Source: Lysobacter capsici (GTDB taxonomy: Bacteria; Pseudomonadota; Gammaproteobacteria; Xanthomonadales; Xanthomonadaceae). From it: a stretch of DNA of 64,000 bases. Both the position numbers and the translations under genes were made by a program. The notes under the pieces were generated by a model. It saw nothing but the letters and a program-made list of their open reading frames with translations. It was not told the DNA's origin and did not search any database. Positions 58,748-61,770 of the stretch are shown one piece after another; the stretch's first letter is position 1, and the number at the start of each line of letters is the position of its first letter. The DNA lies in contig NZ_CP094357.1 in the NCBI RefSeq assembly GCF_014779555.2, forward strand, positions 3,410,001-3,474,000. The letters are read 5' to 3'.

Positions 58748-59968
58748 TCAACGCGGGCGAGGCGAAACCACCCCGACGAAATCGGTCGGCACCGCGAAGC
58801 CTTCCTTGCGCATCCACGGCGCATGCACCGGACTGAGATCGCAGCGGAAGTCGCGGACCATCATCGCGCAGAACAACACCAACTGGGCATGCCCGACCGA
58901 GGCGCCGACGCACGAGCGCGGGCCGAAACCGAACGGCACGTAGGCGCCCTTGGCTTCCTGCCGTCGCGACGACAGCCAGCGGTCGGGATCGAACACTTCC
59001 GGCTCGTCCCAGTACTCCTCGGAGTGATGCAGGATGTACGAGCTCAACTCGTAGATCTGGTCTTTCCTGACCGACACGCCGTCGAGCTCGATGTCGCGCT
59101 GGGCGACCCGCCGGGTCACGAACGGCGTCGTCCACAGCCGCATCGCTTCCTTGATGAAGCGCATGGTGTGCGGGAGTTTGCGGATCGGCAGGGTGTACAA
59201 CTCCTCCCACTCCAGCGCGTCCATTTCCTCCTGCAGGTGCTCGCGCCATTGCGGGTACTGCGACATCGCATACACCAGACAGGCCGCCATCATGCCGGGC
59301 ACGCCGGAGATCGCGATCATTTGCACCGTGACCAAGTAAGTGACGCGATCGACCCCGATGCGATCGACCAACCCGAGCAAGGGCTGAGTGAAGTCGTCGC
59401 GTGATTCGCCACGCGCGACACGTTGTTTGATCTGCCGCGTGATCGCCCGCGTCGCCGCGCGGTGCAGCAGGAAATCCGGAATGCGCCGCCACAACGGCAC
59501 GTGTTGTTCGAGCTGGACGCGAAAACGCAGTTCCTGCTCGGCGATCAGGGTGCGCAGATCGCGGCCGTCGATGCCGTCGATCGCCAGCGGAATCAGCGCG
59601 CGCGACACCGTGCGCCACATCAGCTTGGTCAGGTCTTGCTCGGATCCGGTGTGTTCACCGAGATAGGCCTGCATGCGCTGGTGCAATGCGCGCATCTGTC
59701 CGGGCGTGACCAGGGCGCCGCTGCGCTCGGTCAACAGGGTGCGCACTTCGCGCCAGGTCACCGGTTCGGACTTGCGCATGCCGAGCACGTCGGCGAGCGA
59801 ATCGATGACCTTGAGATCGTCGGAATTGATCTTGTCGACCTTGTTGGCCAGGGCCGGGCTGAAAATGCCGACGACGCCTCCGGGCAACGGAAGCACCGGG
59901 CCTTCGCGACGCACGCGCTCGAGCAGGCGCGCCGCGGGATCGTCCGCGGGATCGGGTTGGGTGGTCAA
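58748..59968 (-). CDS. cytochrome P450, candidate peptide-modifying (RiPP) enzyme
   Basis: Heme-thiolate monooxygenase, soluble (no membrane anchor). The 406-residue product has ExxR at 274-277 (FIKEAMRLW), the heme loop FGFGPRSCVG with axial Cys353, and an I-helix (IAISGVPGMMA, about 218-228) lacking the usual acid-Thr pair, as in many P450s that do radical cross-linking rather than hydroxylation. The start is taken as TTG at 59966-59968 with GAGG 6 bases upstream. A stronger AAGGAGG lies at 60012-60018, 7 bases before an in-frame ATC (60002-60004) that would add 12 residues, so the true start is unsettled. It lies 114 bp after a 32-codon peptide gene on the same strand. Confidence 0.93.
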   Translation of the reverse strand: MTTQPDPADDPAARLLERVRREGPVLPLPGGVVGIFSPALANKVDKINSDDLKVIDSLADVLGMRKSEPVTWREVRTLLTERSGALVTPGQMRALHQRMQAYLGEHTGSEQDLTKLMWRTVSRALIPLAIDGIDGRDLRTLIAEQELRFRVQLEQHVPLWRRIPDFLLHRAATRAITRQIKQRVARGESRDDFTQPLLGLVDRIGVDRVTYLVTVQMIAISGVPGMMAACLVYAMSQYPQWREHLQEEMDALEWEELYTLPIRKLPHTMRFIKEAMRLWTTPFVTRRVAQRDIELDGVSVRKDQIYELSSYILHHSEEYWDEPEVFDPDRWLSSRRQEAKGAYVPFGFGPRSCVGASVGHAQLVLFCAMMVRDFRCDLSPVHAPWMRKEGFAVPTDFVGVVSPRPR

Positions 59969-60020
59969 GGAGCGCCTCTGTCTGAGAGGAAGGCGACCGG
60001 CGATCGGCCGCCCTCCTTGT

Positions 60021-60048
60021 TCACATCGTCCTGATCACATCGTCCTGA
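60021..60048. repeat. 14-bp direct repeat in the peptide-P450 leader
   Basis: TCACATCGTCCTGA occurs twice in exact tandem (60021-60034, 60035-60048), followed by ACGCGTCAGG, which can pair with CCTGA. It lies in the gap between the short peptide gene and the P450, just upstream of the strong AAGGAGG site. Confidence 0.85.
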
Positions 60049-60082
60049 ACGCGTCAGGCAAACGTGCGGATAGAGCCCAGGA

Positions 60083-60181
60083 TCAGAATTCCACCCACAG
60101 CGGCCACGTCTTCCACAGGCTGCTGGTTTCGTTGGGATGGATGTTCATAGCGACACGAGCAGCGCGGAGCAACCTTGCCAT
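60083..60181 (-). CDS. candidate RiPP precursor peptide, 32 residues
   Basis: A very short gene too small for standard tracks. ATG at 60179-60181 is preceded at 7 bases by a strong AAGGAG. The product starts with a basic helix-like segment (MARLLRAARVAM), has a linker with HPNE, and ends SSLWKTWPLWVEF, where Trp23, Trp26, Trp29 and Phe32 are spaced exactly three apart. It has no cysteine. The only nearby enzyme is the P450 114 bp downstream on the same strand, with no transcription terminator between. P450-crosslinked ribosomal peptides (biarylitide, cittilin and tryptorubin-type) use just this layout: short precursor, aromatic C-terminal core, P450. Expression and modification are inferred. 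An internal ATG at codon 12 has no ribosome binding site. Confidence 0.7.
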   Translation of the reverse strand: MARLLRAARVAMNIHPNETSSLWKTWPLWVEF

Positions 60182-60393
60182 CTCTCATCTCCTTGTCTAT
60201 GAGTACGTATCAGTACGCAACGGTGGACTGCGCGGCGAAAACCGCACAGTACCGGCCTTATAGCACCGCGTTTCCGCAAGGGTCTACCTGTCAGAAATAC
60301 GCTTGCCACGACGTGTTGCGACAATGGAAATCTTCGTGCGCATCACAGAAAACCGCTGACGAGGCGACTACTTTTGTCGGCTGTCCGCTCGCC
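60182..60393 (-). promoter_or_regulatory. probable promoter region of the peptide-P450 unit
   Basis: 212 bp between the membrane-protein stop and the peptide start, clearly richer in A and T than its surroundings (for example 60215-60370). CTATAAGG near 60260-60267 and ATAGAC near 60196-60201 could serve as -10 boxes, but no confident -35 pair was found. GTACGTATCAGTAC at 60204-60217 is a near-palindrome that could be an operator. Confidence 0.35.
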
Positions 60394-60801
60394 TCACGCC
60401 GCCTTGAGTTGGCGGCGCAACCCGAAGAACTGCAGCTCGGCGAACACCGCCACCACCGCCGCCTGCGCCAGCACGAAGGTCAGACCCAGCGCGTTCGGCG
60501 CGATCGCCCCCTCGACCAGCACCAACACCGAGCCGGCGACCCAGGCGAGATTCACCCCGATCACCGTCCACGCCAGCGAAGGCGCGATCGGCTTGCGCGT
60601 CGCCACCCAGCCCACGAACAGCATCCAGGCCAGCAGCACCGCGCCGCCGCCGCGCAGCCAGCCCGGATCGATCGCGAGCAAGCGCGACAACGGCGCGGTC
60701 GCGGCGAGCTGCAGCAAGCCGGCGGCGCCGGACACGCCGGCGTCGAGCACCAATGCGCGGCGCAACAAGGTCGAAGCCTGCGATTGGAAGGTAATGGCCA
60801 T
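60394..60801 (-). CDS. small integral membrane protein of unknown function
   Basis: The 135-residue product has four predicted membrane helices (ALVLDAGVSGAAGLLQLA, GAVLLAWMLFVGWVA, AWTVIGVNLAWVAGSVLVLV, LGLTFVLAQAAVVAVFAEL) and short charged loops. ATG at 60799-60801 with AGGAG upstream. It is divergent from the XRE regulator, 132 bp away, so it is the likely target of that regulator. Confidence 0.8.
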   Translation of the reverse strand: MAITFQSQASTLLRRALVLDAGVSGAAGLLQLAATAPLSRLLAIDPGWLRGGGAVLLAWMLFVGWVATRKPIAPSLAWTVIGVNLAWVAGSVLVLVEGAIAPNALGLTFVLAQAAVVAVFAELQFFGLRRQLKAA

Positions 60802-60933
60802 GATCGTTCTCCTGTGGGTGATCGTCGTGATCGTTCGTGTTTGCTTGACGCCATCACACACCCGCGCCCGCGGCCGGTCGATTACGTGCCAGGTAATGCC
60901 AACGCGCACCGCCGCTGGGCTATCGTGGCCGGC

Positions 60934-61770
60934 ATGAACGATCAACGCCCCGTGGGCGAGCTGCTGCGCGATTGGCGCCGCCGCCGCCGTCTGACCCAAT
61001 TCGATCTGGCCGGCCTGGCGCAGATCTCGACCCGCCATGTCAGCTTCATCGAGACCGGCCGTTCGCTGCCGAGCCGGGCGATGCTGCTGCGCCTGGCCGA
61101 CCGCCTCGACGTGCCCTTGCGCGAGCGCAATCAGCTGATGACCGCGGCCGGTCTGGCGCCGATGTATTCCGAACGCAGCCTCGACCATCCGGCCCTGCAC
61201 GAGGCCCATGCCGCGATCGAACTGGTGCTGTACGGGCACGAGCCGCATCCGGCGCTGGCGGTCGACCGGCACTGGAATTTGATCGCGCACAACCGCGCGG
61301 TCGCGCCGCTGCTCGCAGGCCTGCCCGACTTCCTGCTCGCGCGGCCGGCCAACGTACTGCGCGCGAGCCTGCATCCCGAAGGCCTGGCCACGCGCATCGT
61401 CAATCCCGGCGAATGGCGCGCGCACATCCTGCATCGGCTGCGGCATCAGATCGACACCACCGGCGACCCGGTGCTGCAGGCGCTGTACGAGGAACTCGCC
61501 GCCTACCCCGCGCCCGAGGATTACGACGAAACCGAACTGCCGTCGTCACTGCACGTCGCCGTGCCGTTCCGCCTGCGCAGCGAACTGGGCGAACTGGCCT
61601 TCATCAGCACCACCACCGTGTTCGGCACGCCGATGGACGTGACCTTGTCGGAAGTGGCGATCGAATCGTTCTTCCCCGCCGACGCCGCGACCGCGCAGGC
61701 GATGCGCGCGTTCGGCGCCAGCCTGACGCCGGACGATCCGGCGCAAGGCCGCATGCGCGACGGGCACTGA
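60934..61770 (+). CDS. XRE-family transcriptional regulator with MmyB-like ligand domain
   Basis: DNA-binding regulator. The 278-residue product has an N-terminal helix-turn-helix (GELLRDWRRRRRLTQFDLAGLAQISTRHVSFIETGRSLPSRAMLLRLADRLDVP cut here; about 7-62) and a C-terminal MmyB-like domain that is PAS-like and expected to bind a small molecule (VDRHWNLIAHNRAVAPLL, SELGELAFISTTTVFGTPMDVTLSEVAIESFFP). ATG at 60934. A SUKH-like gene follows after 5 bp. Confidence 0.9.
   Translation: MNDQRPVGELLRDWRRRRRLTQFDLAGLAQISTRHVSFIETGRSLPSRAMLLRLADRLDVPLRERNQLMTAAGLAPMYSERSLDHPALHEAHAAIELVLYGHEPHPALAVDRHWNLIAHNRAVAPLLAGLPDFLLARPANVLRASLHPEGLATRIVNPGEWRAHILHRLRHQIDTTGDPVLQALYEELAAYPAPEDYDETELPSSLHVAVPFRLRSELGELAFISTTTVFGTPMDVTLSEVAIESFFPADAATAQAMRAFGASLTPDDPAQGRMRDGH

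Follow-up and report, generated by a model that had tools for sequence, protein, structure and literature searches.

A short aromatic-ended peptide gene and its neighbouring cytochrome P450 as a candidate two-gene RiPP cluster in Lysobacter

Does a gene of 32 codons, lying directly upstream of a cytochrome P450 gene on the chromosome of Lysobacter capsici, encode the substrate of that enzyme, and would the enzyme join aromatic side chains of the peptide? The locus lies in the window, by which we mean the whole stretch of 64,000 nucleotides analysed (contig NZ_CP094357.1, positions 3,410,001 to 3,474,000), within a genome of 6.24 Mb assembled as one contig. An initial annotation made from the sequence alone had proposed a candidate minimal P450 RiPP cluster, and this proposal is supported by the conservation of the gene pair at all 24 P450 loci compared and by a P450 tree that matches the peptide type. 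We consider it probable that the pair constitutes a two-gene P450 RiPP cluster with putative aromatic crosslinking. The elements concerned are the following.

60189..60194, minus strand: Shine-Dalgarno site AAGGAG, 7 bases 5' of the ATG (sequence)
60083..60181, minus strand: precursor peptide gene of 32 codons with the type A core SSLWKTWPLWVEF (reading frame, conservation in eight type A loci, coding signal)
60122..60181, minus strand: precursor leader, residues 1-20 (alignment and a leader-only match to NF053510 below its cut-off; boundary estimated)
60083..60121, minus strand: putative core SLWKTWPLWVEF and stop codon (W23, W26, W29, E31 and F32 invariant; boundary estimated)
59987..60017, minus strand: GC-rich hairpin with a 13-bp stem (G-U allowed) and a 5-base loop, between precursor and P450 (stem search and folding)
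58748..59968, minus strand: gene for a cytochrome P450 of 406 aa that starts at TTG and is the putative crosslinking enzyme (Pfam p450, 6.8e-36; ExxR and haem Cys353 present)

Re-reading of the sequence confirmed the 99-bp minus-strand frame (60181-60083) and its strong AAGGAG site 7 bases ahead of the ATG. The frame translates as MARLLRAARVAMNIHPNETSSLWKTWPLWVEF followed by a stop, with Trp23, Trp26, Trp29 and Phe32 at the positions claimed for them, and the P450 is indeed the next minus-strand gene, 114 bp past the precursor.

Among the 75 frames of the window that encode 20-50 aa behind a Shine-Dalgarno-like site, one has such an aromatic C-terminal core, namely the precursor frame itself, and none of the 2,139 comparable frames in 20 order-3 Markov windows has one; because the core pattern for this count was composed after the peptides were known, conservation is the stronger test. 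The precursor peptide is identical in three Lysobacter-genus genomes, with two variable nucleotide sites that are both synonymous, and the P450s of the same genomes differ pairwise by 50-60 synonymous and 22-27 non-synonymous sites. Two synonymous sites among three close genomes are insufficient alone as proof of selection. The W-W-W-E-F frame of the peptide is, in addition, preserved in two more genera, and the differences from precursors of other genera, counted by codon position, are 7, 3 and 15 (G119), 6, 4 and 16 (G179 and G434) and 7, 4 and 17 (G389); against G410 they are 8, 9 and 17, so that the third-position excess is less clear there. In the codon-by-codon comparison that had been proposed as a check, changes between genera fall mostly at third positions and those among close relatives are synonymous only, and this combination indicates that the frame is coding. 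A chance open frame is ruled out by conservation. The five distinct peptides of type A are fixed at W23, W26, W29, E31 and F32 and vary at residues 24-25, 27-28 and 30; W29 is unchanged across all 17 aligned family peptides. When the peptide was used as a query against 297 family genomes, matches were obtained in four, each with an adjoining P450. Genes as short as these precursors are likely to be overlooked by routine annotation.

To define the distribution of the pair, we searched for the P450 in several genome samples, obtaining matches in 11 of 100 relatives (1e-40), 20 of 395 family genomes (1e-50, 22 places), 8 of 299 order genomes (1e-60), 28 of 398 phylum genomes (1e-25) and one of five relatives of G640. 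These samples, which reach up to the level of the phylum, overlap and combine to 24 loci in 22 genomes. In the phylum search G000, G179 and G640 matched near full length (E ≤ 1e-100), and the other 25 matches were partial (1e-25 to 1e-31). Five Erythrobacteraceae loci proved to be general P450s (23-29%), with no precursor-like frame among the upstream short frames listed. Plasmid records with a P450 match numbered 53, all below 60% identity, and the 15 listed were at 26-29%.

A short gene with a Shine-Dalgarno-like site lies directly 5' of the P450 in all 24 related loci, which answers the question, set as a check by the initial annotation, of whether the frame is conserved upstream of P450 homologues. 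A leader-only pattern that left the core unconstrained recovered, in the loci examined at that point, only frames beside family P450s and their in-frame inner starts; it missed the G640 precursor, which a plain frame listing showed. The encoded peptides share their leader and fall into three core types: type A, to which the window belongs (eight loci), with SS(L/V)WxxWxxW(V/I)EF; type B (five loci), with STQ(S/C)IRSKYxYWxxF; and type C (11 loci), with WxWxxYH(N/H/T)(I/M) in one to four copies per locus. The total of 24 type C copies was obtained with a pattern that demanded the core and therefore cannot serve as independent proof of it. The WxxWxxWxxF spacing, which had been put forward as a new core motif, is kept in the eight type A loci but is confined to them.

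The enzymes divide in the same way. A maximum-likelihood tree built from the 24 main and two second P450s places types A, B and C in one group each (support 96/92, 100/99 and 99/100) and makes A and B sisters (99/100). The three type labels require two changes on this tree, the minimum possible, and an equally low number was reached in none of 200 shuffles; near-copies favour a test of this kind, and the tree has long branches that join at G640 as well as between type C and types A/B. On the sequence evidence main P450 and peptide type have diverged together. Two genomes, G410 and G434, each carry one type B and one type A cassette about 3.2 kb apart. At the G410 locus (L047, 6275-10880) a LuxR-type gene with an autoinducer-binding domain and a DJ-1/PfpI-type gene lie between the B and A cassettes, and quorum control of these cassettes is possible.

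The types also differ in cluster architecture. A search at E 1e-12 of 11 type A/B neighbourhoods, each reaching about 5.5-8.6 kb to either side (4 kb on one side in the window), gave no second P450, no MATE exporter and no M16 peptidase. Matches to the second-P450 query fell on the main P450, as did its only match in the window genome (E 1e-10). The type C neighbourhoods (L022-L027, L050, L051, L055, L111 and L112), with their one to four precursors ending in WxWxxYH.., contain a second P450 in 11 of 11 cases and MATE and M16 genes in 10 of 11; the exception, G640, has neither MATE nor M16 within the 15 kb covered. Type C is a fuller, hyalucidin-like cluster. Since the second P450 is present in all type C loci and in none of the 11 type A/B neighbourhoods, cores that end in Tyr pair with two P450s and those that end in Phe have one.

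Neighbourhood and Pfam scans bore out the earlier remark that neither a protease nor an exporter adjoins the window pair. A convergent GreA/GreB-type gene lies beyond the P450, and the remaining genes scanned nearby are of ordinary chromosomal kinds (YhhN, a transglycosylase with LysM, HerA-like, NlpE, FKBP and GGDEF/EAL). Upstream of the pair (60394-61770) we observed a divergent HTH/MLTR_LBD regulator and a small frame for which Pfam gave no match, with nothing to tie either to the pair. No sigma-70-like promoter was found in 59900-60420.

The P450 itself retains the general features of its superfamily, the ExxR motif and the haem Cys being present in every aligned row. The I-helix acid/alcohol pair, which serves ordinary P450 oxygenation, is replaced by Pro-Gly in all 24 main P450s (Pro224-Gly225 in the window enzyme); the nine aligned second P450s have GSVG at this position, and two Erythrobacteraceae comparison rows retain HDT. 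Main and second P450s are thus alike in having no usual pair (residues 221-225 of the window P450). Its loss would fit coupling better than hydroxylation. For crosslinking P450s PMC9023744 reports that two one-electron steps have been suggested and describes abstractable phenolic and indolic protons as important. The best NCBIfam P450 model for the window enzyme was that of the RiPP crosslinker ApyO (NF050147), at 79 bits against a cut-off of 525 and over residues 231-379, which is a general P450 region, and a terpene monooxygenase model slightly outscored ApyO in two of four family P450s scanned. PDB sequence searches returned general P450s and no named RiPP enzyme within the top 60 matches, out of 316 in one search and 335 in the other, and an AlphaFold model built on a six-row alignment (mean pLDDT 44.7) was too poor for use.

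Which known system is closest? The initial annotation had pointed to biarylitides, cittilins and tryptorubins; the nearest known relative that we found is instead the hyalucidin A precursor family, through a weak leader match. The NCBIfam model of this family (NF053510, cut-off 35) gave 16.3 bits (E 0.008) for the window peptide and 17.0 bits (E 0.005) for residues 1-20 alone, both below the cut-off, whereas neither the four shuffles nor a control with the core alone matched the model. Whole-length scans of 14 family peptides gave matches for nine (10.2-21.1 bits, all below 35) and none for the other five, two of them type A; the best score was that of the type C peptide of G027 (21.1 bits over full length). 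In a genome search none of 60 genomes exceeded the cut-off, and because weak matches also occurred in 9 of 14 control genomes, such whole-genome matches are meaningless. Hyalucidin A, to judge from the title of Yin et al (Angew. Chem. 2026, cited in PMC13417212), carries a benzofuranoindoline made by tandem P450 catalysis, a structure that would need Trp plus a phenol. The likeness to the present family lies in a short precursor and P450 catalysis besides the leader match, and the words "tandem P450 catalysis" fit type C with its two P450s in 11 of 11 loci and its Trp and Tyr. The window cluster, in contrast, has one P450 and a peptide without Tyr, and is best read as a one-enzyme, Phe-ended relative of the tandem-P450 clusters.

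Other systems share single traits with the pair. ApyO links aromatic residues within a ribosomally made peptide, but the aminopyruvatide cluster has, in the accessible part of PMC13192836, an MNIO enzyme and a YLYD end, whereas the window peptide ends in WVEF, no MNIO was found among the window genes scanned with Pfam, and the P450 stays far below the ApyO cut-off. Biarylitide P450s likewise adjoin a precursor gene so short that annotation overlooks it; their precursors are pentapeptides, with a range of 5-8 residues according to the available text of PMC13417212, against 32 residues here. In cihunamide B (PMC13383641, as far as the text was accessible), also a RiPP, two Trp residues are bonded to each other (Trp N1-Trp C7'), as is predicted for the window peptide. 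No such Lysobacter cluster was found among the literature matches listed, and "undescribed" is a provisional term because most subscription papers, including the main P450-RiPP mining studies, lay outside the scope of the literature search.

As in P450 RiPPs generally, a short precursor gene with a leader and an aromatic core adjoins a P450 gene and is conserved together with it. In the model that we favour, the ribosome would make the 32-residue precursor, its basic leader (about residues 1-20, RLLRAARVAMNI) would dock on the P450, whose gene begins 114 bp further downstream, and thread the aromatic C-terminus into the haem pocket, and the enzyme would couple core side chains via one-electron oxidation of indole. 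It is very probable that the adjoining P450 takes this peptide as its substrate, and a crosslink between aromatic residues of the peptide can be expected with good, if lesser, confidence. On the best reading the P450 would join two or more of Trp23, Trp26 and Trp29, the most likely bond being Trp-Trp at i,i+3 (W26-W29 and/or W23-W26). F32 may serve as a binding element or as a second partner; its conservation is chemically unexplained because Phe is a poor partner in oxidative coupling. A peptidase and an exporter encoded elsewhere would mature and release the product. Three cores occur within this one family, types A and B with one P450 and a Phe end and type C with two P450s, Tyr plus a short tail and mostly an exporter and peptidase of its own. 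Tentatively, types A and B might even form a separate, as yet undescribed one-enzyme P450 RiPP class, in which the type A P450, lacking the I-helix acid/alcohol pair, would make two i,i+3 Trp-Trp bonds in succession (W23-W26-W29), perhaps closed by Phe32, so that two genes would suffice for a laddered peptide with several staples, and in which loss or gain of the second P450 would have tracked the change between Phe and Tyr; we rate this extended version as possible rather than probable.

If the favoured model is true, a single P450 forms at least one Trp-Trp bond in a 32-residue gene product, which would be useful for peptide stapling and in the natural-product mining of Lysobacter. The family also offers a natural experiment, as the second P450 accompanies Tyr-ended and not Phe-ended cores, making the job of the second enzyme directly testable.

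The closest competitor of crosslinking is that the P450 does use the peptide as a substrate but modifies it by hydroxylation, epoxidation or some other oxidation in which no side chains are joined. RiPP P450s perform other reactions too (PMC13192836), nitration by RufO among them (PMC12186263), as the available parts of these papers report, and Phe32 does not suggest itself as a coupling partner; however, the I-helix acid/alcohol pair is missing in 24 of 24 main P450s and the frozen aromatic spacing suits coupling, so that we regard this reading as unlikely. Less likely by a clear distance is an atropopeptide or bitryptide of the tryptorubin type that has lost its leader motif. With tryptorubin A and its relatives the pair shares the two-gene layout with one P450 and the i,i+3 Trp pair, and TWPLWV of the window peptide would fit the xWxxWx core with Trp at core position 2, the core boundary being estimated. 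Moreover, atropopeptide clusters of Xanthomonas combine proteases with xWxxYx cores, a pattern that the type C cores (RWVxYH) fit, with proteases nearby. Yet residues 17-20 of atropopeptides are KSLK or one of its listed variants (this and the preceding traits from the accessible part of PMC11450843), whereas the window peptide has NETS there, none of the family peptides examined, type C included, has KSLK, the leader resembles that of another family, and the window peptide has three Trp and a C-terminal Phe. We rejected atropopeptide membership because residues 17-20 lack the KSLK motif. A KSLK-like DNA pattern matched in 11 of 198 family genomes, and none of the frames at the three loci read (L094, L098 and L103) was a precursor.

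Two further readings detach the short gene from the chemistry of the P450. It might be an attenuator or upstream regulatory frame, its three Trp codons sensing Trp and the hairpin acting as a switch while the P450 acts elsewhere, a reading that the Trp-rich short frame, its strong Shine-Dalgarno site and the hairpin immediately 5' of the P450 would allow. But the leader is preserved at the protein level between genera, type B contains only one Trp, precursors of type C stand in tandem, up to four of them, with a single P450 start following the last, and the peptide type tracks the enzyme tree; an attenuator is highly improbable, and we rejected it on leader conservation, tandem copies and co-divergence. 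Equally, the basic amphipathic N-terminus and Trp-rich C-terminus could suit a peptide with a function of its own, for example at membranes, that neighbours the P450 by accident. The intact pair in 24 of 24 P450 loci and the P450 beside four of four peptide matches leave this reading a probability close to nil. A P450 RiPP cluster with putative crosslinking remains the preferred explanation.

Lastly, the gap between the two genes had been described as having no terminator. This holds for a terminator with a U-tract, but a 13-bp hairpin is present. An unbroken stem of 11-14 bp (G-U allowed) occurs in 22 of the 24 precursor-P450 gaps, and in these 22 gaps the observed stem was reached in 0-2 of 100 shuffles (mean stem of shuffled gaps 5.7-6.9); the exceptions, L011 (8 bp, 9 of 100) and L007 (7 bp, 47 of 100), are unremarkable, and L007 folds with a bulge. 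The fold energy of the window gap is lower than that of its shuffles (z -2.62, 3 of 200 as good), and in several type C gaps the whole-gap energy is not below that of shuffles (z near 0). An Rfam search gave no match. The stems differ in sequence among types A, B and C and are alike in position. Intergenic hairpins in other RiPP operons act in partial termination or message stability, and the hairpin here may have such a role, giving more precursor than enzyme. Within the same gap, TCAGGACGATGTGA occurs twice in tandem (60021-60048, minus strand), in a stretch that differs in two close relatives.
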